From Anaerolineaceae bacterium (GTDB taxonomy: Bacteria > Chloroflexota > Anaerolineae > Anaerolineales > Anaerolineaceae), in assembly GCA_030653365.1 (NCBI GenBank), contig JAURZL010000013.1, positions 1-64,000 of the forward strand: a DNA stretch of 64,000 bases, given 5' to 3'. The position numbers and the translations under genes are program-made. Positions 10,656 through 29,560 of this stretch are shown here, piece by piece. Under the pieces are notes generated by a model, which was not told where the DNA came from, ran no database searches, and saw only the letters and a list, made by a program, of their open reading frames with translations. How positions within the stretch are numbered: the first letter of the stretch is position 1; the number at the start of each line of letters is the position of its first letter.

Positions 10656-12821
10656 ATGAACACAGAATTTTTGCACTTGAATTTAATTAGAATTGATTTG
10701 CTAATTCGTGTCGCCGTTCGACGCTGGGAATTAGCAGGCCAGGATTTTTCTGAAAAATTTCGGGGCTTATTTATTTCTGAAAAAAACATACAAGATTTAC
10801 TGAATCTGCCTATGGGGGGAAATTGGGGGACTGGAATATCATTACCTGAAGCGGAAGAACAATTAATAGATGATCTTTTTCTTCAGGTTGAGGAACAGAT
10901 TGTTCAATTAAGAGAAAAAGCAGATAACAATGAGATCTTACTTCGATTGGATCAGTTGAAACACCTGTTTAATTTATCCACATTTGAATTAGATGCTTTT
11001 CTGTTATGTTTGCTTCCCATGTTGGATAGCAGATATGAACGAATTTATGGATTCTTGCAAGACGATATAACAAATAAATATATGAGCGCAGGATTAATCT
11101 TTGATTTATTAATAGAACCTGGACTTGATCGCATTGATTTTTTTGAGTATTTTGATGATCAACACACTTTGCTAAAATACGAGCTGATAAAATCTGTGTC
11201 CGAGAATCAATCCTCTGAAAAACCTTTGATCAAACAAAATTTCATCGTACCAAATGAAATTATTTCCTGGTTAATGGGTCAATATAAATCAGTTAAAAAG
11301 TTGTCAAATGCATTGCGATTGTCGGATTCAGATCGGACCATGAATGAACAATCTGTTATCTTCGATTTCCCTGAAGATTTATCAATATTGGTGTCAAAAA
11401 ATCCATTTTTGGTTTTGTTCGGTCAGGACGACCTTCAAAAACAATTAATTGCCAATCATATCGCTGCTTTAAAGAATCAGTCCTTACTTTACTTTGACCT
11501 GAGAATGATCTCCGACTCTATCATTTCAGATAGACATTTATTTGATTTATTTATCAGAGATGTCAAACTTTCCAGTTCAATTCCAGTCGTGATAGGTTGG
11601 GACAATAATATTGAGAACCAGAATGAAGTTCAAATTCTTTTCCAGGAACTAAGCAATTTTGATAAATCCATCATACTATTCACAGCTAAATATTGGCCAA
11701 TTTTGCGCAGCGAAAGCCAGAAACAAAAACCAATTATTTGGTTAAATTGCAGCCATCCTTCCAGTGGAAAACGACTGCAAATTTGGAAAAGGTATTTGGG
11801 CAAAAGTGAAGAAATAACAAATCGAGAACTGGAAATACTTTCCGGGCAATTCAGTCTTACGGCCAGTCAAATTCAAAATACGGTTTATTCAGCAAAAGAC
11901 CTGGCATTCAAAAAAGATTTACCAATATCAATTGATGATTTATATGAATCAGCCCGATTTTATTCCAGCCATCACCTGTCAAGCCTGGCAACGAAAATTC
12001 ATCCACGCTATAGTTGGGAGGATATTGTTCTTCCAGAAGATGGGTTAGCATCATTACAGGAAATAACTAACACAATCCGTTGGCGTACAGTAGTACTTGA
12101 TGAATGGGGTGTTGGTGCCAGGTTAATGCCTTATGCAGGCGTGTCTGTTCTGTTTGCAGGACCACCCGGTACTGGCAAAACCCTTGCAGCACAGGTGATT
12201 GCAGCAGAGTTAAAGATGGACCTTTATAAAATTGACTTATCCACGGTGGTAAGCAAATACATTGGTGAAACCGAGAAAAATCTGGAAAGAATTTTTAGCC
12301 AGGCTAAGAACAGCAATGCTATTTTGTTCTTTGATGAGGCTGATTCCATTTTCGGCAAGCGCTCAGAAATTAAAGATGCACATGACCGTTATGCCAATAT
12401 CGAAGTCGGATATCTGTTACAACGCATGGAAACTTATGATGGTGTCGTAATCCTGGCTACCAATTTGCGTTCCAATATGGATGATGCATTTACCCGCAGA
12501 ATCCAGTTTATTGTTGAGTTTCCCTTCCCGGATGAGCAGGAACGCAAAAGAATCTGGGAGGTCTTGTTCCCACCAGGTGTACCGAGATTGGATGATATTG
12601 ATTTTGATGAATTGGGATTCCGTTTCAGACTCACAGGCGGGTCGATTCGCAATGTAATTATTAGCGCTTCATTTCTTGCAGCAAGTGACAATCAATCCGT
12701 TTCGAATCATCACTTAATCCATGCAATTCGAAGAGAAATGCAAAAAATGGGAAGATTGGTAAATGATAAGGATCTTATCATGCCCCACAAGGAAGGTAAT
12801 AATGGCAAAAACTCAAAATGA
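10656..12821 (+). CDS. eCIS AAA+ ATPase (Afp15-like)
   Basis: 721 aa from the ATG at 10656. The frame continues up to a TTG at 10581, but that N-terminus looks unlike coding sequence; neither start has a strong ribosome site. The C-terminal AAA+ module has Walker A GPPGTGKT (residues 502-509) and Walker B ending FFDEAD (556-562), followed by sensor and arginine-finger regions (ATNLRSNMDDAFTRR). An upstream segment (VLFGQDD, about residue 250-400) looks like a degenerate first ATPase module. ATPases of this form are a hallmark of eCIS clusters (Afp15/Pvc15) and are thought to act in assembly or cargo loading. It opens the cluster and overlaps the start of the DUF4157 gene. Confidence 0.85.
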   Translation: MNTEFLHLNLIRIDLLIRVAVRRWELAGQDFSEKFRGLFISEKNIQDLLNLPMGGNWGTGISLPEAEEQLIDDLFLQVEEQIVQLREKADNNEILLRLDQLKHLFNLSTFELDAFLLCLLPMLDSRYERIYGFLQDDITNKYMSAGLIFDLLIEPGLDRIDFFEYFDDQHTLLKYELIKSVSENQSSEKPLIKQNFIVPNEIISWLMGQYKSVKKLSNALRLSDSDRTMNEQSVIFDFPEDLSILVSKNPFLVLFGQDDLQKQLIANHIAALKNQSLLYFDLRMISDSIISDRHLFDLFIRDVKLSSSIPVVIGWDNNIENQNEVQILFQELSNFDKSIILFTAKYWPILRSESQKQKPIIWLNCSHPSSGKRLQIWKRYLGKSEEITNRELEILSGQFSLTASQIQNTVYSAKDLAFKKDLPISIDDLYESARFYSSHHLSSLATKIHPRYSWEDIVLPEDGLASLQEITNTIRWRTVVLDEWGVGARLMPYAGVSVLFAGPPGTGKTLAAQVIAAELKMDLYKIDLSTVVSKYIGETEKNLERIFSQAKNSNAILFFDEADSIFGKRSEIKDAHDRYANIEVGYLLQRMETYDGVVILATNLRSNMDDAFTRRIQFIVEFPFPDEQERKRIWEVLFPPGVPRLDDIDFDELGFRFRLTGGSIRNVIISASFLAASDNQSVSNHHLIHAIRREMQKMGRLVNDKDLIMPHKEGNNGKNSK

Positions 12822-15543
12822 ACATCTGAAAAGTCATGATAAAAATCAGGATAATCACCTGCATAAAACTGAGTCATTAAAACCACAAATCCAAAAGGAT
12901 CTATCCGGTCTAAATGCTCAATTGACACACGCAGTAATCTCACCAGAAAAGGCGAATCCTGGAACAATTCAAATGTTGCAAGAAAGATATGGTAACAATG
13001 AAGTCCGCAGGATTGTTCAACCTGATCAGGCGAATGAAGCAGTTGTTGACCAAAGGGGGAACCTTAAAAAATATGTTTCGGATGAGATTCAAAGGGCTCG
13101 ATCTGGTGGTCAACCATTGCAATTGGATGTGTCTGACCAAATGAAACAAAAATTTGGACATGGTTTTGAGAATGTTCGTTTGCACACAGATCAAAAATCT
13201 GATCATATAAGCAGGAAAATTCAAGCCAGGGCTTTTACAATTGGAAATGATATATTCTTTAGAAAAGGGGCTTATTCTCCGAATTCAGAGCAAGGGAAAA
13301 ATACATTGATGCACGAGTTGACCCATGTTGTGCAACAATCGTCCAGTTCGAACTCGAATGGCCCACTAAAACTTGGCGATCCGAATGATAAATTTGAGCA
13401 GGAAGCTGAAGGTTTTGCGAAAGGTGGACCTGGCAATTCCCATCCAAAAACAGGTTCATCATCAGGTGCTGTTCAAAGGCTATCTTTAGCAGGTGTAAAG
13501 AAATCAGTTGGAGGTATTTTTAGCAGAGGTAGTAAACCTGGATCATCACCAACATCAACTACAGCCCCAACAACAACTCCCCCTGTTCCAACTACTCCAG
13601 CAGGATTATTGCCAGATGAGTGGGCATTAATTCAAAAAGCCGGCGTGGTAGACAGAAATGATTGGAGAAGTATTGATCCAAATAGGCAGAAAGCAATATT
13701 TGATTCAATAAAAACTGATTTTTCAATTGCACAACAGTTAGTATCTGCAAACAAGGCGAGTAGTTGGCCTGCAGATGATAACGGTGCGGAAATTTTTGAT
13801 GTTGCAAAACTAAGAACGATAATTAAGACTTTTACTTTTGATTTTTCCAGTTGGAATGGCTTGAAAAAAGAATATAAAAAATTGTTGTTTTCCTTTTCTA
13901 CAAAGCCATATATTGCATCTTTAGCTGAATTTGCAAAAGTAGACAAATGGCCAAAAGATGGCAGTGATCAGGATATTTCAGATGAGAATATTTTCAAAAC
14001 AATAACGGAGATCTGGAAAATCTCATTGGTTCAATGGCAATCAATCTCAGACAAAAATCAAAGAGGATTTCTATTAAGCAATTCAGGAAAGTCCTATAGT
14101 GATGAATTGGTAAAAGCTGCAATTCAGGGAAAATGGCCAAAAGACGGCAGTGATAATCCCATCTTGGATGATGGGAAAATTACAAACATAATCGATGGAA
14201 TTGGCTTGAATTTAGGGATTTGGTCACAAATTGTATCTTCTTCTCGCCGTGGATTGCTAATAAATTCTGTTGGAACTCTATCAAAAGACCAATTGAATGA
14301 ATTGGCCAGATCAGCTATCTCCGGTGTTTGGCCATTGAATGGTAGTGATCAGGATATTTCTACCGCAAATGACTGGAAAAAAATTAAAGATGCATTACCA
14401 AAAATATCACCATCCTATTGGAATGGATTTGATAGTATTACAAGAACAGATGCACTTTCAAAATCTGATTCAGCTGGCGTAAAAGAAGTAATCAATAAAG
14501 CAAATTTCACTCGAAATAGCAAAGAAGGAGCTATGGATAAAATCGGGGAAGTTTCTGGTCATGGTGCAACTGATACCGTCCTTAGTTCTATCGGTTTAGC
14601 TGGTTCGATTACTAGTCTCTCTAAGGGAACGGGAGACAACGCAACACTGGATCGAGCAGGTGCTTCCACGAGTGCGGTTGCAGATGCTGGAAATCTCCTT
14701 GCTTCTGGTGGATCATTGTTGGGCGGTATCGCTCAATTCAGTCGTGGAAAAAAGATGGCAAATGAAAACAGTTCACGTGCCTCTCAGGAAATCGGTAAAA
14801 AACAAAAATCAAGAGGAAAATGGGGAATAACCCAATCCCTTTTTGGAATGGCTGGTAGTGGTTCAAGTCTTGCAGGAAATGTCACAAAGGCATCTGATCC
14901 AACATCAGATAGCAATGACAAAGCTTCGAGTGGATTAGGTGTTGCAGGTGGTTTCTTTGGAATGTTTGGTTCTGCTCTTGGTTTGGGAAAAGGCAGTGCT
15001 TCAATGAATAGCGCCAGAAAGAGAAGTAGTGGCGCAAAAAAATTCATCAAAGAAGCTCCAACTGGCGGAACATTGACTGATGAAGAAAACAAAATGAATG
15101 CAATCGCTCAATTCACTGCGAAAAATCAGAACAAGACTGGAAAAGGATTAGGAATTTTCAAATCCGTAACATCCTTTGTTGGAAGCGCCCTCGGTACGAT
15201 TGGAAGCATAGGAAGTCTTGCTGGAATGTCCAAAGAAGGTGGTTTCGGATTGGGCATTGCAGGTGCGGCATTAAGTGGTTTGGGTATCGCTGGTGGAATT
15301 GGGCAAATGGTTGCTGAAGGAAAAGGAAAACCAAAAGATGCTGATTTAGAAACTCAGGCTGTCAACATCATTGAATTATTGCGATTAGGTACACCTAAAG
15401 GTTTAGAAGCAGCAAAATTTGTCAAAGATGTATTAAAAATTAATTTAATTGATTTAACTGATACATCAACCTGGACTGCCTGGATTGATGAAGATTTGGA
15501 AGCAGCAAAAGCCTTGATCAAATCAAAGCTTTCAAAATTCTAA
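12802..15543 (+). CDS. DUF4157-domain protein, probable eCIS effector/cargo
   Basis: 913 aa from the ATG at 12802, which has GGAAGG upstream. Residues about 100-180 form a DUF4157 domain with HELTH (171-175), a zinc-metallopeptidase-like HExxH motif. DUF4157 proteins are a known marker of eCIS loci, often effectors whose DUF4157 part directs loading or processing. A VQR motif at about 234 and a Pro/Thr-rich linker (about 252-275) follow. Next come four repeats of about 62-65 residues opening with WP..[DG].[SD], near residues 319, 381, 442 and 507. The rest (about 590-870) is Gly/Ser/Ala-rich with several hydrophobic stretches separated by short Lys-rich segments, which could insert into a membrane. 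No enzymatic toxin domain is recognised. Confidence 0.75.
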   Translation: MAKTQNEHLKSHDKNQDNHLHKTESLKPQIQKDLSGLNAQLTHAVISPEKANPGTIQMLQERYGNNEVRRIVQPDQANEAVVDQRGNLKKYVSDEIQRARSGGQPLQLDVSDQMKQKFGHGFENVRLHTDQKSDHISRKIQARAFTIGNDIFFRKGAYSPNSEQGKNTLMHELTHVVQQSSSSNSNGPLKLGDPNDKFEQEAEGFAKGGPGNSHPKTGSSSGAVQRLSLAGVKKSVGGIFSRGSKPGSSPTSTTAPTTTPPVPTTPAGLLPDEWALIQKAGVVDRNDWRSIDPNRQKAIFDSIKTDFSIAQQLVSANKASSWPADDNGAEIFDVAKLRTIIKTFTFDFSSWNGLKKEYKKLLFSFSTKPYIASLAEFAKVDKWPKDGSDQDISDENIFKTITEIWKISLVQWQSISDKNQRGFLLSNSGKSYSDELVKAAIQGKWPKDGSDNPILDDGKITNIIDGIGLNLGIWSQIVSSSRRGLLINSVGTLSKDQLNELARSAISGVWPLNGSDQDISTANDWKKIKDALPKISPSYWNGFDSITRTDALSKSDSAGVKEVINKANFTRNSKEGAMDKIGEVSGHGATDTVLSSIGLAGSITSLSKGTGDNATLDRAGASTSAVADAGNLLASGGSLLGGIAQFSRGKKMANENSSRASQEIGKKQKSRGKWGITQSLFGMAGSGSSLAGNVTKASDPTSDSNDKASSGLGVAGGFFGMFGSALGLGKGSASMNSARKRSSGAKKFIKEAPTGGTLTDEENKMNAIAQFTAKNQNKTGKGLGIFKSVTSFVGSALGTIGSIGSLAGMSKEGGFGLGIAGAALSGLGIAGGIGQMVAEGKGKPKDADLETQAVNIIELLRLGTPKGLEAAKFVKDVLKINLIDLTDTSTWTAWIDEDLEAAKALIKSKLSKF

Positions 15544-15561
15544 AAAGGAAATGTTGAACTT

Positions 15562-16131
15562 ATGAATAATCTGTTGAAACTACTTGAAAACAAACTGAAT
15601 GATCAAGGATACCAATCGTATCTAGTTCCACTGGATGAGAAGATGCTCCAGCACCAAATTGTTATTGATTTGGATTCCGAGATCAATCTAAAATTAACCA
15701 TTTTCATTATTGGAGATTTGATAAGCCTGTCTTCGGATCATGCCGAATTGAATCAAATTTCAAAAGAATTATCTGATGCCAATGTAGATTTTCTGCAACT
15801 TTTCATCCGATTTCCATTTGGTTTTCTAAAAGAAACCATTCCCGATCTTGCCAGATTAATTCTGATGGCAAACTGGTCAACACCGATTGGTGCGTTTGGC
15901 CTGAATGAAGCACAAAATATTATTTTTTATCGCCATGTTTTTGAAAGATTAGGAGAAGAGCCAGGCGTTAACCTGATCGTAGAAGCTGTGAATGCGATGG
16001 CTTTTTATGCAAAACTCCGATTTGAAAGTCTGGAGATAATCGCTTCTGGCGAGAAAACCTTAGCAGGTTATTTGCGTGATTTGGATGAAGAAAATTTAAG
16101 ATCTGAGGAGTTTCCTGGTTATGATTTATGA
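15562..16131 (+). CDS. Small YbjN/secretion-chaperone-like protein
   Basis: 189 aa, acidic. The middle (FPFGFLKETIPDLARLI, then LNEAQNIIFYRHVF) resembles the YbjN fold, which is related in structure to class I type III secretion chaperones. I rest this on the pattern of an alternating beta-sheet and the F/L-P..L..L.. helix, not on a confirmed match. It lies directly between the putative effector gene and the DUF4255 gene and overlaps the latter by eleven bases. A chaperone role for the DUF4157 cargo is therefore plausible but inferred. Confidence 0.45.
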   Translation: MNNLLKLLENKLNDQGYQSYLVPLDEKMLQHQIVIDLDSEINLKLTIFIIGDLISLSSDHAELNQISKELSDANVDFLQLFIRFPFGFLKETIPDLARLILMANWSTPIGAFGLNEAQNIIFYRHVFERLGEEPGVNLIVEAVNAMAFYAKLRFESLEIIASGEKTLAGYLRDLDEENLRSEEFPGYDL

Positions 16132-16969
16132 GTTGAATGAAACTCTTCGTGAATTACTGATGCATGAGATGCCTGTCCGCAAAGGTGATGTTGATATCCA
16201 ATTTGACCTCCCCAAAAGGGAGTGGTCATCCCGACTGAGCAAACCTACCTTAAATCTGTATATGTATGACATTTTAGAAAATATTGAATTGCGTGGATCT
16301 GAACAATGGACACAAACAGATAATGGCGATGGAACAGTCACAATACATCGAAATCCGGTACGTGTCAATTTCTATTATCTGATTACAAGTTGGGCGAAAG
16401 AAATTCAGGATGAACAGCAACTCCTTTCGGCTGCATTAACCACACTTCTTCGGCAGCCTTCCATACCCGAAGAATTGCTTCCAGTGAATTTGAAGAATCA
16501 ACCTGTTCCCATCCGTTTAGAGGTAGGACAAAATAAGAGTCTGGCTAAATTATCAGATTTTTGGGGAACGATTGACAATGATCCTCATCCAGGCATTCGA
16601 TTAACCGTTACTTTGACAATTGATCCGTATAAAGCCATCACCTCACCCAGGGTTGCTACATCTGAGGTTCGTTTTAAACAGAATCCATCACCTAATGGAC
16701 AAAAATTAGAAGATTCCAAATCAAAACTAGTTGATTCCAAATCATATTTTTCCATCAGAGGTAAATTAGTTAGCCAAAAATATTCACCGACAACATTAAA
16801 ACTCTTTCTAAAAGAAACTGGGAAAGAGGTCTCAATACTGGATGAAGGCGAATTTGCAATACAACGCCTTGTCCAGGGGACATATCATCTTGACATCATC
16901 TTCAACGACCGAGTTTTACGGCACGAGAAGTTTGTTGTTCCAGCATCGTATCTGGAAATTAAAGTCTGA
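16121..16969 (+). CDS. DUF4255 tail-terminator/cap protein (Afp16/Pvc16-like)
   Basis: 282 aa. The N-terminal 180 residues match DUF4255: an opening helix with LNETLRELLM, then W..RLSKPTLNLYMYDILEN and a long conserved LTSWA-like segment (YYLITSWAKEIQDEQQLL). In Afp and PVC this protein caps the tube and sheath end distal to the baseplate and ends polymerisation. A second, beta-rich domain of about 80 residues (FSIRGKLVS to LEIKV) resembles a carboxypeptidase-regulatory-like or carbohydrate-binding sandwich and is an extra beyond the core. The start codon overlaps the upstream gene. Confidence 0.8.
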   Translation: MIYELNETLRELLMHEMPVRKGDVDIQFDLPKREWSSRLSKPTLNLYMYDILENIELRGSEQWTQTDNGDGTVTIHRNPVRVNFYYLITSWAKEIQDEQQLLSAALTTLLRQPSIPEELLPVNLKNQPVPIRLEVGQNKSLAKLSDFWGTIDNDPHPGIRLTVTLTIDPYKAITSPRVATSEVRFKQNPSPNGQKLEDSKSKLVDSKSYFSIRGKLVSQKYSPTTLKLFLKETGKEVSILDEGEFAIQRLVQGTYHLDIIFNDRVLRHEKFVVPASYLEIKV

Positions 16970-17092
16970 AATGCTGGTAATCCGGTTTTCCAAATCTTAT
17001 ACCAAGGAGGTAGAAGAATACATTTATAAAAATTCAGTTGATCTTTTTTATTCAATTATTTCATAAAAGTGCATGTCAGAAAGGAAGAAAAA

Positions 17093-18751
17093 ATGCCAGA
17101 ATATTTATCACCAGGTGTATATGTTGAGGAAGTAGATCGAGGACCGAAACCAATCGAAGGTGTTGGTACTGCGATGGCCGCTTTTATCGGCTTTACTGAA
17201 AAAGCTGAATTAATTCGTGACGTTGATGGAGAGTTTTTGGCTGAGAATTTACTAAATCGGCCACAACTTGTCACAAACTGGACACAATATGTTGAACGCT
17301 ATGGCAATTTTGTGTCCGGTGCTTACTTGCCACAATCCGTCTATGGCTATTTCATGAATGGCGGATCACGTTGTTATGTAGTCAGTGTTCGTACATTCCC
17401 AAAGGCAGAAGCCGTTTTGATGAATCAGCAAGGCAAGCCAGCTTTGACCGCACGGGCAAAGTTATCTGGAACTGAAGGTATGCGTCTTCGTGTTCGCGTT
17501 GGTGATGTTTCATTACCAGCACCTGCAACTGCAACCAAAAAATCAGGTAAGGATGATGAAGAAAAATCATCCGAAGATACTGGCGGAGATGGTGATGGCG
17601 GTTCAAGCTTCACACTCTTTGTCGAACAGGAAAAAACTGATACATCCTGGAAAGTTGTTGAGACGCTAAAAGATGTTCAACTTCAGGATATGTCAGTCAA
17701 TGGCGAGAAAAAAGTTCAGGTAGCATATAAAAACAATAAATTCTCCAAATTAGTAGATTTATTTGTTGCGAATGACAAAGCTTCTGTTGGACAGCTTCTA
17801 CCTAAAGAACAAGAACAGGTTTTGATGATTGAAAAATCATTACTCCCACCTCCAACTTCTTCCGAATTTCAAGGAGATGTAACCAAACGAAGTGGCGTGG
17901 AAGGTCTGGAAGTTTTGGATGACGTCACGATGGTCTGCGTACCTGATCTGATGACGGTAATGCCTGGACAGAAACTTGATCTGGATATGGTTAAAGGTGT
18001 TCAAACAATGATGCTTGCGCATTGTGAGCGTTTGGGTGATCGCGTTGCTATTCTTGATGCTCCTCCGAATTTATCTCCACAGGAAGTGAAAAACTGGAGA
18101 ATGAATGTGGCTGGGTATGATTCAAGTTATGGTGCGCTCTATTATCCCTGGATCCAAATTATGGACCCGGTAACCAACAAAGTTGTCAGTGTTCCCCCTT
18201 CAGGGCATATGGCTGGTGTCTGGGCTCGCAATGATAACACCCGTGGTGTTCACAAAGCCCCTGCCAATGAAGTCGTTCTTGGTGCAGTCGGTGTTGGTTA
18301 TCAGACTACCAAGGGAGAACAGGATACATTAAATCCAATTGGGGTTAATTGCGTTCGCAGCTTCCCAGGACGTGGTATTCGTGTATGGGGTGGGCGTACA
18401 TTGTCAAGCAATCCTTCCTGGCGTTACATAAATGTTCGTCGTCTCTTCAACTATGTTGAAAAGTCGATTGAGAATGGAACCCAATGGGTTGTCTTTGAGC
18501 CCAATGACCGCAAACTTTGGGCACGTGTTCGACGGGATGCCTCCGCTTTTCTCAAAATGGTATGGCGTGATGGAGCATTATTTGGAAGTTCACCAGATGA
18601 GGCTTTCTACGTAAAATGTGATGATGAATTGAACCCACCGGAATCTCGAGATATGGGACGCTTGATCATTGAAATTGGCATGGCACCGGTAAAGCCAGCT
18701 GAATTTGTTATTTTCCGGATTAGCCAATGGGCTGGACCGGGTTCAGAATAA
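17093..18751 (+). CDS. Contractile tail sheath protein
   Basis: 552 aa from the ATG at 17093, chosen for AAGGAAG upstream and the conserved opening MPEYLSPGVYVEEVD seen in phage and eCIS sheaths. The C-terminal half has the sheath core (PNLSPQEVKNWR, YYPWIQI, PPSGHMAGVWARND, GVHKAPAN, INVRRLFNYVEKSIE, FEPND). A Lys/Glu/Asp/Gly-rich low-complexity insert lies at about residues 155-180. The sheath contracts to drive the tube out. Only one sheath gene is present, whereas Afp and PVC have three. A 120-base gap precedes it. Confidence 0.95.
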   Translation: MPEYLSPGVYVEEVDRGPKPIEGVGTAMAAFIGFTEKAELIRDVDGEFLAENLLNRPQLVTNWTQYVERYGNFVSGAYLPQSVYGYFMNGGSRCYVVSVRTFPKAEAVLMNQQGKPALTARAKLSGTEGMRLRVRVGDVSLPAPATATKKSGKDDEEKSSEDTGGDGDGGSSFTLFVEQEKTDTSWKVVETLKDVQLQDMSVNGEKKVQVAYKNNKFSKLVDLFVANDKASVGQLLPKEQEQVLMIEKSLLPPPTSSEFQGDVTKRSGVEGLEVLDDVTMVCVPDLMTVMPGQKLDLDMVKGVQTMMLAHCERLGDRVAILDAPPNLSPQEVKNWRMNVAGYDSSYGALYYPWIQIMDPVTNKVVSVPPSGHMAGVWARNDNTRGVHKAPANEVVLGAVGVGYQTTKGEQDTLNPIGVNCVRSFPGRGIRVWGGRTLSSNPSWRYINVRRLFNYVEKSIENGTQWVVFEPNDRKLWARVRRDASAFLKMVWRDGALFGSSPDEAFYVKCDDELNPPESRDMGRLIIEIGMAPVKPAEFVIFRISQWAGPGSE

Positions 18752-18782
18752 TTTTGTTTTTGAATAAGAAAGGAGCATGAAA

Positions 18783-19229
18783 ATGCCTGGACGTGAAGAT
18801 CCTCTTGTTGCGTTTAAGTTTGGACTGGAAATAGAAGGTAAACTCAGTGGCTTTTTTACTGTGGTTGGCGGAATTGGTTCCGAAACGGAAGTTGTGGACC
18901 ATAAAGTTGTGAATGAAAACGGCGAGACCATTGTACAAAAACTTCCCGGACGTTTGACCTGGACAGAAGTAACGCTAAAACGCGGTGTAACCAGCAATCT
19001 AGATATTTGGGATTGGCGAAATCTGGTTGTTCAGGGAAAAGTTGAAGAAGCCCGTACGAATTGCTCCATCATTGCCTATTCTCAGGATCAGCAACCAATA
19101 GCCCGCTGGGAATTTACCAATGCATGGCCGAGCAAGGTAATTGGTCCGGAATTGGATTCTGGCAGCACTGACTACATGCTTGAAGAAGTAACGATCGTTC
19201 ATGAAGGAATGGAACGGGTAAAACCTTAA
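18783..19229 (+). CDS. Inner tube protein (gp19/Afp1-like)
   Basis: 148 aa starting at the second ATG (18783), because AGGAG is seven bases upstream of it and only one base from the first ATG. The T4 gp19-like tail tube family is shown by DPLVAFKFGLEI, F..V.GIGSE, VTLKRGVT, W.W...V and the closing VTIVHEGMERV. It stacks as hexamer rings forming the injection tube inside the sheath. It directly follows the sheath gene and is followed by unusual inverted repeats, consistent with a highly expressed structural gene. Confidence 0.9.
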   Translation: MPGREDPLVAFKFGLEIEGKLSGFFTVVGGIGSETEVVDHKVVNENGETIVQKLPGRLTWTEVTLKRGVTSNLDIWDWRNLVVQGKVEEARTNCSIIAYSQDQQPIARWEFTNAWPSKVIGPELDSGSTDYMLEEVTIVHEGMERVKP

Positions 19230-19245
19230 GGTGAGAATCAATTCA

Positions 19246-19288
19246 TGAGGTTCTATCTCAACTGATCGGGATGGAACCTCACCCGATT
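19246..19288 (+). promoter_or_regulatory. Interleaved inverted repeats after the tube gene
   Basis: TGAGGTTC (19246-19253) pairs with GAACCTCA (19274-19281). GATCGGG (19264-19270) pairs with CCCGATT (19282-19288) with one G-U. The second left arm lies in the loop of the first stem and its right arm directly follows the first stem. The stems are either alternatives or a strained pseudoknot. It may tune read-through or stability between tube and downstream genes. Confidence 0.5.
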
Positions 19289-19330
19289 CTTAATTAATGA
19301 ATTAATTTACGAAATGGTGACGGTGAAATT

Positions 19331-19804
19331 ATGTTAAGTTCAATAAAGGAAGATTTTAAACTAAATCCGCTTGATTGTTACTTCACATTGGATGTTAATC
19401 AAACAAGATTAGCTACATTTGATAGTCTTTCTGGTGGAGACGTTGAAATCAATGTCATTAAACATAATGTTGTGTACAGTTCAGGAGAATCCAGCACATT
19501 GTTAATTCCTGGAACTACACAGTATTCACCTGTCGAGCTCAAAAGTGGTTTTGGCAATACCAAGGAACTCTATAACTGGTTTGTAAATGCCAGTAGTGGA
19601 GCGTATTCTGACGCCAGAAAAAACGTTACGATTACTCTTAATGCATTAAAAGATGGTGAATATGTTCCCTTGGTAGCCTGGAACTTATTTAATGCCTGGC
19701 CATCAAAAATCTCTGGCTTTGAAAGCAATCAATATAATGTTGCTAATGTAGCCAAGTTTTCGATGACAATTGTTGCAGAATCTATCGAGCGTACTGATCC
19801 TTAA
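19331..19804 (+). CDS. Second tube-like protein (gp19 family)
   Basis: 157 aa, related to the preceding tube protein: LDCYFTLDV, FDSLSGGDVEI, VELKSGFGNTKELYNWF, WNLFNAWPSKISG and a final TIVAESIERTDP matching the tube ending. In Afp/PVC, tube paralogues such as Afp5 form the initiating layer between baseplate and tube. A GGTGA ribosome site precedes the ATG. Assignment to the initiator role is by analogy. Confidence 0.8.
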   Translation: MLSSIKEDFKLNPLDCYFTLDVNQTRLATFDSLSGGDVEINVIKHNVVYSSGESSTLLIPGTTQYSPVELKSGFGNTKELYNWFVNASSGAYSDARKNVTITLNALKDGEYVPLVAWNLFNAWPSKISGFESNQYNVANVAKFSMTIVAESIERTDP

Positions 19805-19843
19805 TTAATGCAGGATGAACAAAATTGAAAGGAAAGCTGAAGA

Positions 19844-20212
19844 ATGAGCTTACACACCGAATTCGAATTTGAATTACCAATTGGTTATGTGGACAGGGAA
19901 GGGAATCTGCATAAACGTGGCATTATGCGTCTGGCTACTGCCATGGATGAGATTACTCCTTTAAATGATATGCGTGTCCAATCCAATGAAGCTTATTTGA
20001 TCATTGTTTTATTAACAAGGGTTATCACCAGTCTGGGAACATTACAACATATTAATACCAGTGTAATTGAAAACCTTTTTGCTGCAGACCTCGCATATTT
20101 GCAAACATTCTATCAGCAGATAAATGAAACGGGTAAGACGACCCGCGCCATTACCTGTAATCATTGTGGAAAACCTGTAGAAATTGATTTGGCAACTTTG
20201 GGGGGGGAATAA
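19844..20212 (+). CDS. Small eCIS protein, candidate assembly-chaperone short form
   Basis: 122 aa with a C-terminal CNHCGK motif (single CxxC) and a mostly helical middle. I do not recognise a named family with certainty. Its place right after tube genes is that of the gpG/gpGT-type tail assembly chaperone in long-tailed phages. The reading frame ends in TTG GGG GGG GAA TAA, with eight consecutive G and a stop. The -1 frame then encodes a DUF6760-like segment with no start codon of its own. A -1 shift would give a 174-aa fusion (121 + 53 residues). Confidence 0.7.
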   Translation: MSLHTEFEFELPIGYVDREGNLHKRGIMRLATAMDEITPLNDMRVQSNEAYLIIVLLTRVITSLGTLQHINTSVIENLFAADLAYLQTFYQQINETGKTTRAITCNHCGKPVEIDLATLGGE

Positions 20213-20367
20213 CGGGCTACCCTCTCGACCAGATCAATGAGGAGGTAGCCTACATTTCCTATCACTTCCATTGGCAGTTGGATCAAATACTTGATCTGGA
20301 GCATCGCCAACGTCGTCAATGGGTAAAAGAGATTGCCAAAATAAATAAACGAATGAATACTGCTTGA
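20188..20367 (+). CDS. DUF6760-like segment, probably made by -1 frameshift
   Basis: The frame is open from 20188 (after a TGA) to the stop at 20365-20367. From 20215 it encodes GYPLDQINEEVAYISYHFHW and then ILDLEHRQRRQWVKEI, which matches my recollection of the DUF6760 family found in eCIS loci. The frame has no ATG, GTG or TTG before the conserved part. It lies in the -1 frame relative to the upstream gene, joined across an eight-G run, so it is most simply read as the second half of a frameshifted product. Alternatives are a rare ATA start at 20209 or a missing G in the assembly. Confidence 0.7.
   Translation, partial: FGNFGGGITGYPLDQINEEVAYISYHFHWQLDQILDLEHRQRRQWVKEIAKINKRMNTA
20200..20250 (+). 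promoter_or_regulatory. Candidate programmed -1 frameshift signal
   Basis: The slippery heptamer G GGG GGG (20200-20206) is in the correct phase of the 19844 frame. An eight-base spacer follows, then a stem of GGCTACC (20215-20221) with GGTAGCC (20244-20250), plus one G-U closing pair. The zero-frame stop TAA (20210-20212) sits in the spacer. Slippery site, spacing and stem all fit known bacterial -1 signals. Confidence 0.65.
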
Positions 20368-20394
20368 GATTTTTCAAACTTGAGATGAGAAATT

Positions 20395-20565
20395 ATGACT
20401 GATCAAGAAAACCCAATCGATATGATCCCTTCTGATCAACAGCAAATGATTAAAGGACAAATAGAAAATTCTGGAAAAGTTGATATGGAAGAGTTGGCAA
20501 AAAAAATCTTTAAGTTACTTAAAACAGACTTGCGACAAGAAAATGAACGACTGCCCAGGAAGTAG
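20395..20565 (+). CDS. 56-aa eCIS small protein
   Basis: 56 aa (opens MTDQENPIDMIPSD). The C-terminal half is a charged helix: VDMEELAKKIFKLLKTDLR, ending ERLPRK. Small genes at this position between tube-like proteins are usual in eCIS loci (for example Afp6/Pvc6). The helix pattern D.EELA..I..LLK..LR is familiar from eCIS small proteins, but I cannot name a family with confidence. GAGATGAG precedes the ATG, and the next gene starts 16 bases later. Confidence 0.7.
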   Translation: MTDQENPIDMIPSDQQQMIKGQIENSGKVDMEELAKKIFKLLKTDLRQENERLPRK

Positions 20566-20581
20566 AAATGTGGAGTGAGAT

Positions 20582-21226
20582 ATGAGCCTAATTGACGGTC
20601 CGAAAAAAATTGACAAACCCAGCAATCAACCAGCTCCTAAAAATATGATGGATGTTGCCAAAGGAATGGTTGGCGCAGCTGGTGTTCGACAATTGGAGAA
20701 TCTTACAGGAATTCGATTCGATCCAGCACCAACATACTTGTTTTACGTAGAAATTTCCGGATTAATTGTTGGTCTATTTACCGAGGTGAGTGGTATTGGT
20801 GCGACCAGAAAAATCGAGACAATTCAAGAAGGTGGATTGAATGACGGCGTTCATAATTTGCCGGGGCAAGTGGAATTTAACCGAATTACCTTTAAAAGAG
20901 GAATGACCGTCTCGCGTGAACTCTGGAACTGGTTTAATATCGGAATTTATGATTTCCAGGTAAAACGATTAAATTTATCAATCATTCAGGGTGCAACTGG
21001 ACAAAGTGTGGCATCACTGATTCCTGGTGCTGGAGGATACGGGGTCGTTAAACGCTGGAATGTAGTCAATGCATACCCGGCAAGCTGGAAATTATCTGAT
21101 CTAAATGTGAGTGATACCAACTCTGTGTCAATTGAATCAATGGAAATCGTTCACGAAGGGATTGAAATTGATCCAAAATTTGGGCTTCCGATGAGCCCAA
21201 TGAGTGTAGTTAAATCAATCATGTAA
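20582..21226 (+). CDS. Third tube-like baseplate protein (gp19 fold)
   Basis: 214 aa. An N-terminal extension of about 55 residues precedes a tube-type core: PTYLFYVEISGL, FTEVSGIGA, VEFNRITFKRGMTVSRELWNWF, VVKRWNVVNAYPASW and IVHEGIEID. In eCIS and phages, proteins with this core sit at the tube-baseplate junction. GGAG lies six bases before the ATG. Its place just upstream of the LysM adaptor and spike genes (with one unusual gene between) fits a baseplate hub role. Confidence 0.8.
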   Translation: MSLIDGPKKIDKPSNQPAPKNMMDVAKGMVGAAGVRQLENLTGIRFDPAPTYLFYVEISGLIVGLFTEVSGIGATRKIETIQEGGLNDGVHNLPGQVEFNRITFKRGMTVSRELWNWFNIGIYDFQVKRLNLSIIQGATGQSVASLIPGAGGYGVVKRWNVVNAYPASWKLSDLNVSDTNSVSIESMEIVHEGIEIDPKFGLPMSPMSVVKSIM

Positions 21227-21235
21227 TGGAATAAA

Positions 21236-24034
21236 ATGACAGATTTTTTGGATGAATCGGCAAAACAATTGAACACAGAACCTGCTGCAATAACCAGTAA
21301 TTTAATAACAAGGTTGCTGCAAAGGAAGGTATCCTCAGGTGTTGTGGTCCCGAAAATTCGAAGCAAAATTGAAAAGATTACGCGTACATCAGACAAAATT
21401 AGGAGAAACCGGATAGTATTGCCCGGAAGACAAAGACGAGAAAATATCAAGAGTTTTGGAGAAACCCTTCAAGCAAGAACTTCCAGAAACCCAAAGAATA
21501 CCTCCCAGAAGTTGGAAAAAAAGCAACAAACTTCCTGGGAGAATCTGGATATGCTTTTACCCAATGGCACCACTCTGGAGAGTTCACGTTCGTCCCTTGC
21601 ACAGTCTAATTTATCAAATATCGGATTATCGGCAGGTGGGCAGGTAATCACTCCATTTTCACCACCTTCACTGAGCAATGAGCCCTCCTTTATTGAGAGA
21701 AGGCAGGCGAGATTAAATGCGCAAGAACAGAAAAAAACCAAACCTAATTTGATAAAACATGATGCTTCTACTCGTTTATTCAGTCGTGTGGAAGAGATCA
21801 TTCCGAATACAGACCAAAAAACAGATCAGAAATCAGAAAAAATCAAGAAAAGTGATCAAATTTTGCCTGCAGAAAAAAAATCAGATGAACCTAAAATTGA
21901 AAGACCATTAACCAAAAAAAGTGAACAAGTCAAAAAAACTGCTTCACAAAATGAATATCCGGAAGAGAAGACTATTGCTAACGGACCGTCCATTTCAACC
22001 GATAACAATTCGGTTGTTCAAAGACAATTAGAAAAAGATATTAATACACCCACATCAAAAGCCAACGAAAAAAAGGTTCTTCCTGAACAAAGACTGAGTT
22101 CGGATGCAATAAAGATAGGTGATACATTCAAATTAGGATCCGATATTGAGAAAGATCTGAATACTCTTGCACCTCGCAAATTGCAAGAAAAATCTCGACA
22201 AGAACAAAAAAGTTCTTCCGAAAAGGAAACAAAGGAAATTGAATTTAAGAATCCTCCCCCAAAAAATAAAATTAAAGGAAATGATAAGAAATTTAAAGAA
22301 TCAAAATCAAAACAGATTTCTGAAATTATTCCTTTTTCGCTGGATAAAGGGAAATCTAAAATTCCTGCTGTTTCCTCCCAAAAAGAAGAGATTAAACCAA
22401 TTTCCGAGGATAAATCAAAAGAACCTTCAATAAAACCACCAACAATAGAGCCAAAAGTATCATCAGTTCCTCCTTTATCAATTCAACGTGAATTGGAAAA
22501 AACAAATAAATCTGTCCACACCAATAAATCAGAAACTCAGGAAACGCAAAGAGAATTCTCTGATGATAAAAAATTGGATTTGCCGCTTATAACACAAAAG
22601 GCATCCATTCCTGATAAAGAAAAAACCATTCCTGGAAAACCATCTTCAGTTCCACTTCCCAGGGATTTAACCGGTAAAACAGAAAAAGAAGAATCTTTGA
22701 TATCCCAACGCTCAATTGCAGACCAAAAAATAGAACTACCGGAAGATACGAAAAAGGTCAAGACAACTACAAAGCAAACAGATAAACCTGTTATTTCCGA
22801 GAAGAAAATTGAGCTAGGACAAAAATCGGAAAAACCAAAACAAATCACACCTCTCGAAAAACCACTGGTTATACCACGAATAAAAAAAATGGCTTTGTCA
22901 AAAACATTTTTGAATTACCAAATAAATAAAATCAAGCGGGTAGTGAAAGAAATTAAAAAACCAGTTACGCGTTCTACGTCTGGAAGAAGATTATTTTCAG
23001 CCAGTAAACCTTTAAGAATCCAACGACAAATTTCTAAAGAAGATTTGAGGATAGATTCGCAATCGATGCCTGAAATTAAGTCGTTCATACCTTCTATAAA
23101 ATCAAAAGGAACAGATTCCCAAACAAAACGTGAACATGTTGATCAATCAAAAGATTTAGTTTCTCATAATGATCAAACACGAACATTTTCCTTAACCTCC
23201 AGACCGAGAAGCAAGAAATATCTTTCTTTGCCTTCGAAAAAAATTAGTGTAATAAAGAAAAAAACCCAGAGAAATCTCGAAAAAGTTATGATTGCTATGA
23301 ACTCATCGCCAATTTTAAAAAGAAGTAAGAGTGACTTGCCTTTACCAATTAATAAATCAGAAAAGACAATTTCTTTTAGAAATACTGCTGGAAGCCCAAA
23401 TGAAGTCAATGACCGGATGGGTAAACCTAGACCAAGACCATTATCTCTAAAGCAAAAAATTTCACCTGTTTTTAATTCACCGATAGGCGAAGAAATACTA
23501 TTGACGTCTGCTGGGAGAAAGTCAATTCAAAATCTATTCATGAGAGATCGATCCGGAGAGAAACCACAAACAAATGAAGGGATTAATCCATTTGTTGTAC
23601 CGATTATTAATAAAGAGACAGGTTTTCAGAAATCAAAGTCCCCTGATCTATCAGTCAAGAAAACCGGTTTTACAGCAAAAACTGAAAGAATAATGAGGAA
23701 AGGTCCAAACAATAGGACTGATCGTTCTTATTCAGAATATTCTCAACAAAAATCAAATGTATCACATGCTCAAAAAGCTCGTCCTGAGATGGAATTACCT
23801 GTTGTGCAATCTAAAAAAGTTGAACCTGTAGAACAATTCATAAAGCCTGAATTGGCTGTAGCTGGTCCCGTTGTTCAGAGGGAGATAAATTCATCAACTG
23901 AATTAGATAATTTACCATCAGTTCCAAATCAGATTGAAAAACCGAATTTGGAAGAACTGGCTAAAGAAGTTTATCCAATTATCAAACGTTGGATAGCAGT
24001 TGAAAAAGAACGCACATCAGGCAGACTGTACTAA
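21236..24034 (+). CDS. 932-aa charged, low-complexity eCIS protein of unknown function
   Basis: Very rich in Lys, Ser, Glu, Gln, Pro and Thr with almost no hydrophobic core, so probably disordered over most of its length. No enzymatic motif is visible. A short motif [VI]QR[QE] recurs near residues 259-262 (VVQRQL), 414 (SIQREL), 593 (RIQRQI) and 878 (VVQREI); the DUF4157 protein has a related AVQR. The final 35 residues are more ordered (LEELAKEVYPIIKRWIAVEKER). It occupies a baseplate-proximal place in the operon where no conventional tape-measure gene is otherwise found. Possible roles are tape measure, scaffold or cargo tether, all inference. The start ATG has a poor ribosome site and follows the upstream stop by nine bases. 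Confidence 0.7.
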   Translation: MTDFLDESAKQLNTEPAAITSNLITRLLQRKVSSGVVVPKIRSKIEKITRTSDKIRRNRIVLPGRQRRENIKSFGETLQARTSRNPKNTSQKLEKKQQTSWENLDMLLPNGTTLESSRSSLAQSNLSNIGLSAGGQVITPFSPPSLSNEPSFIERRQARLNAQEQKKTKPNLIKHDASTRLFSRVEEIIPNTDQKTDQKSEKIKKSDQILPAEKKSDEPKIERPLTKKSEQVKKTASQNEYPEEKTIANGPSISTDNNSVVQRQLEKDINTPTSKANEKKVLPEQRLSSDAIKIGDTFKLGSDIEKDLNTLAPRKLQEKSRQEQKSSSEKETKEIEFKNPPPKNKIKGNDKKFKESKSKQISEIIPFSLDKGKSKIPAVSSQKEEIKPISEDKSKEPSIKPPTIEPKVSSVPPLSIQRELEKTNKSVHTNKSETQETQREFSDDKKLDLPLITQKASIPDKEKTIPGKPSSVPLPRDLTGKTEKEESLISQRSIADQKIELPEDTKKVKTTTKQTDKPVISEKKIELGQKSEKPKQITPLEKPLVIPRIKKMALSKTFLNYQINKIKRVVKEIKKPVTRSTSGRRLFSASKPLRIQRQISKEDLRIDSQSMPEIKSFIPSIKSKGTDSQTKREHVDQSKDLVSHNDQTRTFSLTSRPRSKKYLSLPSKKISVIKKKTQRNLEKVMIAMNSSPILKRSKSDLPLPINKSEKTISFRNTAGSPNEVNDRMGKPRPRPLSLKQKISPVFNSPIGEEILLTSAGRKSIQNLFMRDRSGEKPQTNEGINPFVVPIINKETGFQKSKSPDLSVKKTGFTAKTERIMRKGPNNRTDRSYSEYSQQKSNVSHAQKARPEMELPVVQSKKVEPVEQFIKPELAVAGPVVQREINSSTELDNLPSVPNQIEKPNLEELAKEVYPIIKRWIAVEKERTSGRLY

Positions 24035-24059
24035 ATGAGAAATAATTTGGAGGTGATTC

Positions 24060-24776
24060 TTGTTCGATAAAATAAAAGGTACACTCAATCCACCATCCGA
24101 AAAGCCTACGCTTCAAAAGGCAAAAATAATCTATTCAGCTGGTTCGGGAGCGAAAACGATTGATTGTCAGTTTAATCCACAATCTTTGACGATTGTAAAA
24201 ACAGTTGATTGGAGGTCTGGGAGAGGAGATAAAGATAAGGTTGAACCTCGACCGGAATTAAATTCACCAGAATTATCATTTGGGGGTGGTAACCCAGCAG
24301 AATTCAGCCTGGATTTGATTTTTGATACTACCCGTTTGGATAATCAGGATGTGCGGGGTTTTACCAATCAGCTTCTATCATTAACACTGATGGGTGCTGG
24401 AGATCCGAAAAAGAAAGATGATGACCCACCTCTCGTTCAATTTATTTGGGGTGATTTGGTACTTTTTATTGCAGTTATAAAGAAAGTTGAAATAAGTTAC
24501 ACTTTGTTTTTGGCCAGTGGCATTCCTGTTCGTGCCAGAGCAAAAGTTGATTTTATTCAGGCTTTTGATGAAGATGGTCCTCAAGATAGTCAAAACCCTA
24601 CGACCCGTACCGAAGCAAGAAAAACCCATTTGGTACAACAGGGGGATCGCCTAGATTATCTGGCTTTTACAGCATATGGACAATCCGGATTATGGCGGGA
24701 AATTGCCGCAGCAAATGGACTAGATGATCCAAACGATATTCATCCAGGCCAGGTTTTAGTAATTCCACCTCTTTAA
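24060..24776 (+). CDS. LysM-domain baseplate adaptor (Afp7/Pvc7-like)
   Basis: 238 aa with a TTG start; GGAGGTG lies five bases upstream, which decides the start. The N-terminal 170 residues (IDCQFNPQSLTIVKTVDW, LSFGGGNPAEFSLDLIFDTT) are typical of eCIS and phage hub-adaptor proteins. Residues about 190-238 form a LysM domain (THLVQQGDRLDYLAFTAYG, then IAAANGLDDPNDIHPGQVL). In contractile systems this protein joins tube and spike. It directly precedes the spike gene. Confidence 0.85.
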   Translation: MFDKIKGTLNPPSEKPTLQKAKIIYSAGSGAKTIDCQFNPQSLTIVKTVDWRSGRGDKDKVEPRPELNSPELSFGGGNPAEFSLDLIFDTTRLDNQDVRGFTNQLLSLTLMGAGDPKKKDDDPPLVQFIWGDLVLFIAVIKKVEISYTLFLASGIPVRARAKVDFIQAFDEDGPQDSQNPTTRTEARKTHLVQQGDRLDYLAFTAYGQSGLWREIAAANGLDDPNDIHPGQVLVIPPL

Positions 24777-24797
24777 AAGAAATAGGAAGACTGAATT

Positions 24798-26663
24798 ATG
24801 ACCGAAGAAATTAGCATAACCATTGATGGAACAAATCAAACGGAACTCCTGTTTTATTTGCTCGAAGTCGTTGTGGACACCAATTTATTCATGCCATCCA
24901 TGTTTAGCTTATTGATTCATGATGATGAAAACCCAAAAGGATCGGGAAAAATGAAATATATCGATTCAGCCATTTTTAAAGTTGGAGCGGCTGTAAAGAT
25001 AACGATGAAAACAGATGATATTCCAGATGAACAAAGTCTTGTGAAAGAAGATTTAATAGAAGGTGAAATTACAGCGCTTGAACCTATCTTTTCAGCTGAT
25101 GGAACAGCGATGTTGAGGGTGAGAGGTTATGACAAGTCCCATCGATTGACTCGGGGAAAAAAGACCAGAACTTTTGAAAAAATGAAGGATTCAGCGATTA
25201 TACAAAAAATTGTCCAGGAAGCGGGGCTTAGTTGTCAGGTTGATACCACAACGATCACATATGATTATGTGATGCAGTATAACCAAACAGATTGGGATTT
25301 TATCTGGTCGCGTGCACAAAGAATTGGATACCAGGTTTATTACCATAATGGTAAATTGAATTTTAAAAAAATGGATTCAGTCATAAGTGGAAGTGATCCT
25401 GCAAGATTAACCTGGGGCTACAATCTGAGAAGATTTGAACCAAGACTTTCTGCTATTGGGCAGGTAAATGAGACGATTGCTTCCGGTTGGGATCCAGTTG
25501 AAAAAAAAGAAATTATTGGTAAAAAGTCAGGTGATGTAAAGATTGTTCCAGAAATTGGAATGGGTCAAAATGTTGGCGGAGACGCAACCAAAAAAGCTTT
25601 TGGTTCACCTGCTATAAATTACTTAGCTGATACTCCTGTATTCAATGCGTCTGAAGCTGAACTAATTGCAACAGGGGAAAAGAGTCGTACAGAAAGCACT
25701 TTTATTCAAGCCGAAGGAGAGTGTGCTTATGGCGATCCCCGACTGATTGCCGGAAAAAAAGTTGTTGTTGACGGAATTGGCAACCGATTTAGCGGAAAGT
25801 ACTATGTAACAGAAGCACAACATCATTACAGCCGAGGAACGTATACCGTGTATTTTGGAGTTTCAGGGCAAACTCCCAATACAATTCATGCATTATTAAA
25901 TAACGGTGGAGGTAATCATAGCAATCGAATTGACGGAGTTGTCACTGCTGTAGTAACGAAAAACTCAGGAGATCCGAACGACCTCAGCCGGATACAGGTA
26001 AAATTTCCATGGTTGCCAAAAGACAGTGGTGCAGAGCTTTCCAGTGCCTGGGCAAGAATCGTAACTCCTGGTGGTGGAAAAGATCGTGGTTTTCTATTCT
26101 TTCCTGAAATCAATGATGAAGTCCTGGTTGCCTTTGAGCATGGTGATATAAATTATCCATTAATTGTGGGTGGATTATGGAATAAAAAGGATCTTCCCCC
26201 ATTAAAAAATACGGATGCCGTCAAAAGTGGAGAGGTTAATCAGCGGGTATTGAAATCGCGTAGTGGTCATCAGATTATGTTGGATGACACCAAAGGCGCA
26301 GAAAAAATAACAATCCAGGATAAATCCACAAAGAATATTATTGAATTTGATGTTGACAAAAAATCAATAACTTTTAAAGCCGAGGGTGATTTAATTTTTG
26401 ATGCAGGTGGAAAGTTCACTGTAACGAGTAAGGGCGACCTTTCTATGGCTTCGAAAGCAAAAGCATCCTTTGAAAGCCAGAGCGCAATGAGCATGGAATC
26501 CAAACAAAAAACTTCAGTCAAAGTAGGTTCCAATGAACTTGCTCTGCAAATGGCAGGAAGTTCTTTAAAGGGCACCCAAGTGGAGATCAATGGTAGTGCT
26601 AAAACAGATCTAAAAGGTGGTGCTATGGTTCAAATTCAAGGTGGAATTGTAAAGATAAATTGA
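24798..26663 (+). CDS. VgrG/gp27-gp5-like central spike protein (Afp8-like)
   Basis: 621 aa. Residues about 1-370 are the gp27-like late-control-D fold (ITALEPIFSADGTAMLRVRGYDKSHRL, QYNQTDWDFIWSRAQRIGYQVYY). Residues about 378-470 are the gp5 OB-fold (VTAVVTKN, RIQVKFPWL, WARIVTPG, GFLFFPEINDEVLVAFEHGD). The rest is a repetitive beta-helix needle (KITIQDKSTKNIIEFD onward). It forms the trimeric spike that punctures the target membrane. No effector extension is present at its C-terminus. AGGAAG precedes the ATG. Confidence 0.92.
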   Translation: MTEEISITIDGTNQTELLFYLLEVVVDTNLFMPSMFSLLIHDDENPKGSGKMKYIDSAIFKVGAAVKITMKTDDIPDEQSLVKEDLIEGEITALEPIFSADGTAMLRVRGYDKSHRLTRGKKTRTFEKMKDSAIIQKIVQEAGLSCQVDTTTITYDYVMQYNQTDWDFIWSRAQRIGYQVYYHNGKLNFKKMDSVISGSDPARLTWGYNLRRFEPRLSAIGQVNETIASGWDPVEKKEIIGKKSGDVKIVPEIGMGQNVGGDATKKAFGSPAINYLADTPVFNASEAELIATGEKSRTESTFIQAEGECAYGDPRLIAGKKVVVDGIGNRFSGKYYVTEAQHHYSRGTYTVYFGVSGQTPNTIHALLNNGGGNHSNRIDGVVTAVVTKNSGDPNDLSRIQVKFPWLPKDSGAELSSAWARIVTPGGGKDRGFLFFPEINDEVLVAFEHGDINYPLIVGGLWNKKDLPPLKNTDAVKSGEVNQRVLKSRSGHQIMLDDTKGAEKITIQDKSTKNIIEFDVDKKSITFKAEGDLIFDAGGKFTVTSKGDLSMASKAKASFESQSAMSMESKQKTSVKVGSNELALQMAGSSLKGTQVEINGSAKTDLKGGAMVQIQGGIVKIN

Positions 26664-26699
26664 TATGAAATCGTTACAGTCAGATTTTCAGGAGAAAAA

Positions 26700-26990
26700 A
26701 TGAGTTTTCCAGCAGCGAGATTAACAGATATAACAGCAACGGGCGATACGATTACCGGCCCTGGTGTTGCAACGGTGTTGATTGGCAATATGCCAGCTTC
26801 GGTAGTTGGAGACATGGTGAGTGGAGCTGCCTGTGTCGGATCCATCATGATGGGTAGTATGACAGTTCTAATTGGTGGTAGACCAGCTGCACGAATGACA
26901 AGTCAGGTAGTGGGATCTAATCCAATAACTGGCGTACCTGTTTCTACAGTTGTAGCGAAAGGTGAACCAACGGTCCTGATCGGCGGTTGA
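26700..26990 (+). CDS. PAAR-repeat spike tip protein
   Basis: 96 aa. It opens with PAARLTDITATGD and contains G.P.VLIGN and VLIGGRPAARM followed by a closing PTVLIGG, the repeat pattern of PAAR proteins that form the sharp metal-binding cone on VgrG-like spikes. AGGAG is placed well before the ATG. The stop overlaps the longest possible frame of the next gene. It has no added toxin domain. Confidence 0.9.
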   Translation: MSFPAARLTDITATGDTITGPGVATVLIGNMPASVVGDMVSGAACVGSIMMGSMTVLIGGRPAARMTSQVVGSNPITGVPVSTVVAKGEPTVLIGG

Positions 26991-27010
26991 AAGAAGAAAC
27001 GAGAAAATCA

Positions 27011-27424
27011 ATGAAACAAGATTTACGTAAAGCATATTTAGGAACAGGTCTGGCATTCCCGATGCAGGTAAACTCGAAAGGTGAGATTGCCCTTGTAAGT
27101 GGTCCTACGGATATTGATCAATCGATCAGGATTATTCTGGGTACCCGACCAGGAGAACGAGTGATGCGACCTACCTTTGGTTGTAAAGCGCATGATCTCT
27201 TATTTGAAGTTCGAGATGCAACTACTGCCAGCCTATTGAAAAAATATGTGATTGATGCATTGAATTTTTGGGAACCACGAATTCAGGTATTAATGGTTGA
27301 TGTCTTGATTGATGATGATATGGATGGTGCCCTGCAGGTTGAGATTGATTATGAAATAAAAGCAACTCATGATACCCGAAGTATTGTTTATCCATTCTTC
27401 CTGGCTGGTGAAGAAAATTGGTAA
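27011..27424 (+). CDS. gp25-like baseplate protein (Afp9-like)
   Basis: 137 aa from the ATG at 27011; a TTG at 26987 overlapping the PAAR stop is an alternative. The gp25/W family is shown by YLGTGLAFPMQV, I..SIRIILGTRPGERVMRPTFGC, and L....DAL..WEPRI. It is a wedge component of the baseplate that starts sheath assembly. It is followed after 34 bases by the baseplate J gene, the usual order in eCIS and T6SS-like loci. Confidence 0.92.
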   Translation: MKQDLRKAYLGTGLAFPMQVNSKGEIALVSGPTDIDQSIRIILGTRPGERVMRPTFGCKAHDLLFEVRDATTASLLKKYVIDALNFWEPRIQVLMVDVLIDDDMDGALQVEIDYEIKATHDTRSIVYPFFLAGEENW

Positions 27425-27458
27425 GTTCAAGAAAAAATGATAATGTAGGAGAACAGGT

Positions 27459-29552: not shown

Positions 29553-29560
29553 ATAAAAAT

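Follow-up and report, generated by a model that had tools for sequence, protein, structure and literature searches.

How does a small gene in the structural cluster of a cell-encoded injection machine come to end in a run of eight G, with an open frame that has no start codon of its own lying just beyond its stop? The gene lies in a 64,000-nucleotide (nt) stretch of an Anaerolineaceae bacterium (contig JAURZL010000013.1, "the window" below), in a cluster for an extracellular contractile injection system (eCIS). The original prediction, made from this stretch only, described a slippery G-run followed by a stem, and read them as a -1 frameshift device like that of the gpG/gpGT tail assembly chaperones of long-tailed phages. 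We confirmed the observation, and comparison with relatives supports the reading. A programmed -1 frameshift on the G-run, yielding a chaperone of 122 amino acids (aa) and a 174-aa fusion to the domain DUF6760, is very probably the explanation; from the anatomy and conservation described here we infer the shift by the ribosome, its frequency and the roles of the two products.

Anatomy of the junction

All features in the window are on the forward strand. The short product, which we call A, is a tail-assembly-chaperone-like protein of 122 aa (19844..20212) that matches phrog_508 (E 1.8e-5), and its predicted fold is nearest to YqbN and the HK97 chaperone. Its frame ends TTG GGG GGG GAA TAA, with the zero-frame stop TAA at 20210..20212. 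Eight G at 20200-20207 place the heptamer G GGG GGG (20200..20206) in X XXY YYZ phase relative to the A frame, as had been described. This heptamer, which has homologous tandem sites in relatives, was taken originally as the slip site; its phase stands, but the register conserved in relatives is that of the overlapping G GGG GAA (20203..20209). The latter ends 8 nt before a conserved Tyr codon, a spacing that makes it the probable main slip site, and is separated by 5 nt from the stem. G GGG GGG lies one codon further upstream, 11 nt from the Tyr codon and, as originally noted, 8 nt from the stem. Both heptamers can serve, and either predicts the 174-aa fusion. If slippage is simultaneous, the junction would read ...LGGEITGYP... 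after a slip at G GGG GAA and ...LGGGITGYP... after one at G GGG GGG.

The putative stimulatory hairpin (20214..20251) pairs 20214-20221 with 20244-20251, and has an inner helix of 20223-20226 with 20239-20242. The perfect stem of 7 base pairs (bp) in the original description, GGCTACC (20215-20221) with GGTAGCC (20244-20250), is present within the outer helix. The 61 bases 3′ of the heptamer fold into a single hairpin in which helices of 8 bp and 4 bp flank one C/A mismatch (-17.6 kcal/mol, z -2.92), a stability equalled in 1 of 200 dinucleotide shuffles. No Rfam family was found at the gathering threshold within 17000-24000.

The -1 frame is open, as had been observed. It adds 52 residues after the shift (20209..20367, ending at TGA 20365-20367), and it encodes DUF6760 (PF20546, E 4.7e-14), which we call B. 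From its upstream stop to the conserved Tyr, this frame has no ATG, GTG or TTG. The junction GGG GGG GAA is identical in two relatives (L033 and L034) whose short proteins are 94-95% identical to the window A; because these match, and because most of the more distant homologues share the arrangement, the window junction cannot be put down to chance or to an assembly error private to this genome.

Slip site, phase and hairpin among relatives

Within the window's phylum, 55 of 400 genomes carried A; in six other phyla the counts were 7 of 249, 20 of 194, 81 of 188, 23 of 198, 15 of 217 and 3 of 398. Named loci were taken from the best 80 of 575 confirmed stretches, a set that favours close relatives. 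Among these 80, A was found in Chloroflexi, Streptomyces, Myxococcota, Planctomycetota, Brevibacillus/Paenibacillus, cyanobacteria, Terriglobia and Rhodospirillales, making eight phyla by record title, with the usual caution for metagenome bins. Seven weak Myxococcota matches were left out of the locus set, and any loci sharing an identical 500-base stretch were treated as one, which left 295 A genes. Counts by cluster refer to 127 clusters at 80% identity of A.

B follows A in 249 of the 295 genes, and it lies in the -1 phase in 248 of these pairs, which include isolates and complete plasmids; the sole exception (L231) has B as a separate gene in phase 0. A five-G run occurs in the last ten codons of 224 of the 248 A genes with B, versus 3 of the 46 without B, and any in-phase heptamer at all was found in the last 25 codons of only 7 of those 46. 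Five genomes of one Chloroflexota genus that carry A without B have no DUF6760 anywhere in the genome and no G-run.

The heptamer is of G type in 227 of 248 A/B pairs. Counted by cluster, an in-phase heptamer is present in 122 of 127; the other two phases give 36 and 17, partly the same G-runs read out of phase. The types are GGGGGAA (57 clusters), GGGGGGG (20), GGGGGGA (18), GGGGGAG (14), TTTTTTA (5) and TTTTTTC (2), with one cluster each for TTTTTTG, TTTTTTT, AAATTTT, GGGAAAG, CCCTTTA and CCCGGGG, and none in 5 clusters. Where a G-type heptamer and the Tyr codon could both be located (223 loci), 205 loci have the two 8 nt apart and the remaining 18 have them 11 nt apart. A T-run heptamer with no start codon is found in some Bacillota (L111, L127, L128).

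The hairpin was evaluated at the same 223 loci by folding the region 3′ of the heptamer against 100 versions with synonymous codons in the -1 frame. At 199 loci no more than 5 of the 100 shuffles reached the native stability (median z -2.85). Of the 186 loci that have Val in the 3′ arm, 170 encode it by GTA, compared with 145 of the 2453 other Val codons of A and B, these controls being pooled over loci rather than taken per genome. Selection of the loci for a G-type heptamer puts a GGG codon there by itself; the GTA and fold tests are free of this effect. In the common register, 91.7% of cells among 89 non-redundant sequences are paired and 18 cells are changed on both sides, and none of 500 shuffles reaches either value. 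Covariation alone is modest, because a shift of the partner by +2 columns yields 22 both-side changes, although with only 25.8% paired. A second register, in Streptomyces and some Chloroflexota, has a stem of 8-9 bp in a shifted position, and its covariation is not significant among the nine variants available. In the 18 clusters with no G-type heptamer, a hairpin reached by at most 10 of 200 synonymous shuffles was found only in L211 (0/200) and L111 (8/200); heptamer and hairpin therefore go together. Among T-run sites the stem stands out in these two only, and we claim no stem there. The alignment suggested with the original prediction thus shows that slippery run, stem and -1 phase are all kept across a broad range of relatives.

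Several loci show other arrangements. Twenty Chloroflexota A genes have no DUF6760 partner after them (L016-L019, L021, L241, L247, L250-L262). Cyanobacteria (L140, L141, L145, L149-L153 and others) have tandem copies of A, the first with neither the zinc-ribbon-like tail nor DUF6760, and the second with a G-type heptamer and DUF6760. At a junction near position 1845 of a Pseudomonadota-group locus (L235), an in-phase G GGA AAG replaces the G-run. In two Brevibacillus loci (L102, L106) heptamer and stem are lost together and a Shine-Dalgarno-like stretch and an ATG are gained, amounting to a natural switch to separate initiation.

Alternative routes to the DUF6760 product

B could instead be made as a separate small protein through termination-reinitiation or translational coupling, the G-run serving as a Shine-Dalgarno-like stretch. 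We consider this unlikely as the general explanation, and plausible for a minority of lineages. The -1 frame lacks any start codon in 62 of 127 clusters, including the window, and in 21 others it has a start only at a distance of over 24 nt before the first-frame stop; the remaining 44 have a start near the junction, so that the missing start of the original prediction holds for many relatives but not for all. Of these 44 starts, 38 are NTGA overlaps, and only 5 have AGGA, GGAG or GAGG upstream, plain G-runs being excluded from that count. A start and ribosome site belonging to DUF6760 itself, the pattern named at the outset as telling against a frameshift, does occur in part, in a minority. 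Several loci speak for reinitiation. Brevibacillus (L102) has GGAGG-like bases and an ATG, with no heptamer and no significant stem; an ATGA stop-start overlap without a heptamer is seen in three actinomycete clusters; and an archaeal A/DUF6760 pair on a Haloferax larsenii plasmid (NZ_CP078064.1, L325 5989-6785) is annotated with an ATGA overlap, just upstream of which lies an in-phase GGGAAAC. Deposited RefSeq annotations also give B as a separate coding sequence, with a four-base overlap with A on a Nostoc plasmid, and beginning 3′ of the A stop on a Rhodococcus plasmid. Since Brevibacillus, these actinomycete clusters and Haloferax have an ATG or ATGA, the two-product arrangement is replaceable, and this replaceability is the main evidence against a universal frameshift. 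Reinitiation nevertheless leaves unexplained the fixed phase of the heptamer, the T-run sites with no start codon, and a stable hairpin over the initiation region.

Slippage by RNA polymerase would place the event in transcription, with stuttering on the G-run giving some mRNAs one extra G and so the fusion in a single frame. The eight consecutive G in the window and the T-run sites of some divergent homologues with no significant downstream stem speak for it. Yet the last in-phase heptamer is GGGGGAA or GGGGGAG in 71 of 127 clusters, often with runs of five G only, and a stuttering polymerase needs neither a codon phase nor a hairpin 5-8 nt downstream. Polymerase slippage may act on runs of eight G but fits the five-G sites and the hairpin poorly, and we rate it slightly below reinitiation. 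A third possibility is one fused gene broken by a sequencing or assembly error, or a decaying pseudogene, for which it speaks that homopolymers are error-prone. This we judge extremely improbable: both frames are conserved as protein, and for the family as a whole it is already refuted by the phase count, the same -1 phase recurring in 248 of 249 pairs from independent genomes. Frameshifting is favoured because no other explanation we have seen accounts at once for the phase, the heptamers, the hairpin, the biased codon use and the absent start codons.

Kinship with phage chaperones and the surrounding cluster

A first structure model of A, built from 25 sequences, was too weak for use (mean predicted local distance difference test score, pLDDT, 58.6); a second, from 124 sequences, reached a mean pLDDT of 83.9. 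The predicted fold is nearest to YqbN (3KLU) and the HK97 tail assembly chaperone (2OB9), with identity of just 10-11% and with the C-terminal CxxC zinc-ribbon-like tail of A outside both alignments. A myophage chaperone, 'Probable tail assembly protein FS-gp41' of phage Mu, ranks tenth (Foldseek E 2.0e-3, query template modelling score 0.55), and T4-like baseplate hub assembly proteins are among the best viral fold matches (E 2.3e-6). Sequence likeness is weaker: Phage_TAC_7 (E, 41 or 14) is matched by 5 of 25 A members (best E 0.001), phrog_150 (T4-like baseplate hub assembly/chaperones; Pfam T4_baseplate) by 5 of 124 A homologues, Gp41_Mu matches the window A below the cut-off (E 0.093), and NCBIfam gave sub-threshold matches only. 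On these comparisons, the short product is homologous to phage tail assembly chaperones, and its chaperone role is inferred from that homology; the gpG/gpGT comparison of the original prediction thus holds at the protein level. A PDB sequence search with A found no resembling solved chain (one unrelated match, E 0.15), which fits absence from the finished particle, short of showing it.

No match was found by tblastn against 50,697 phage records, either for A (E 0.01) or for DUF6760 (E 1). Nine IMG/VR contigs carry A, all with DUF6760 in the -1 phase and eight with a G-type heptamer; we did not use them as phage evidence, as they may be either viral or mis-sorted eCIS.

In lambda gpG/gpGT and its equivalents in long-tailed phages, a short chaperone and its -1 fusion likewise come from one gene beside the tube gene. 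Unlike these, the window device belongs to a cell-encoded injection machine, its extension is DUF6760, and the site most often seen in its family is a G-run closely followed by a strong hairpin. Two heptamer classes are common to the window family and phage chaperone genes, GGGGGAA (57 clusters) and GGGAAAG (one cluster), the latter being the lambda slip heptamer. A 2022 paper by Vladimirov et al., going by its title, reportedly proposes a non-frameshift mechanism for T4-like phages, and may treat related systems. We found no paper on frameshifting in eCIS and none mentioning DUF6760, in a search that left most subscription journals and all preprint servers outside. Passages of the PRFect paper (PMC10885494) describe GGGGGAA as the sole form of the 'fivetwo' motif, with over a thousand phage cases, and as common at the slip sites of phage chaperone genes, those of many actinobacteriophages included. 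A review (PMC5009743) describes GGGAAAG as highly shift-prone in E. coli, gpG and gpGT as both absent from virions, and G-T frameshifting as widely conserved in long-tailed phages with T4 excepted, whereas the sequence evidence here favours frameshifting. Part of a further paper (PMC12846349) proposes the device for a myophage family.

The cluster (10581..30601) has these Pfam matches: Phage_sheath_1, three Phage_T4_gp19, CIS_tube (CIS_tube/LysM), a Phage_base_V spike hub, PAAR, GPW_gp25, Baseplate_J, Tail_P2_I (tail protein I), an AAA ATPase, eCIS_core and Pvc16_N. From these sheath, tube, baseplate, spike, ATPase and eCIS-specific domains, we take it by sequence content to be an eCIS; no capsid gene turned up among the Pfam matches, in which no search was aimed at capsid genes. 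The two genes upstream of A are both gp19-like tube genes, 18777..19229 (E 8.6e-35) and, directly before A, 19331..19804 (E 1.4e-18), so that A does stand immediately after two tube genes, as originally described. Right after the third gp19-like gene, an open reading frame (ORF) at 21236-24034 encodes a 932-aa protein with abundant Lys, Ser and Glu, for which Pfam gives nothing at E 0.001; we recognised no tape-measure gene in the cluster. Elsewhere in the window, 12763-15543 encodes a 926-aa eCIS_core (DUF4157-type) protein whose C-terminal region is long and Gly-rich, and downstream of the eCIS genes a 2095-aa ORF (34052-40339) has the appearance of many Ig-like repeats.

By the mechanism we propose, most ribosomes would terminate at TAA 20210 and release the 122-aa chaperone. 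A minority, delayed by the hairpin 5 nt downstream, would slip one base backward on the G-run and read on through DUF6760 into the 174-aa fusion. By analogy with gpG/gpGT, the short form may coat the tape-measure protein, and the DUF6760 extension may recruit tube subunits to polymerise around that protein. We see an even chance that a broader proposition holds: that frameshifting of the assembly chaperone is ancestral and widely kept in cell-encoded T4-type contractile injection machines, that DUF6760 does the work of the lambda T domain, that the injector tube is controlled in its assembly and length by the ratio of short to long form, and that lineages swap slip sites (G-runs, T-runs, GGGAAAG) and sometimes use a stop-start overlap instead.

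If frameshifting is correct, a recoding device regarded as a phage trait would belong to the standard equipment of a large class of protein-delivery machines in bacteria, a counterpoint to the T4 exception in the frameshift literature. Two unnamed proteins, the assembly chaperone and DUF6760, would gain an identity, and the separate or truncated gene that gene callers make of DUF6760 would be explained. Recoding the genes of expressed eCIS clusters could destroy the slip signal unnoticed. The junction would also provide a handle on assembly and length setting in cell-encoded injectors.
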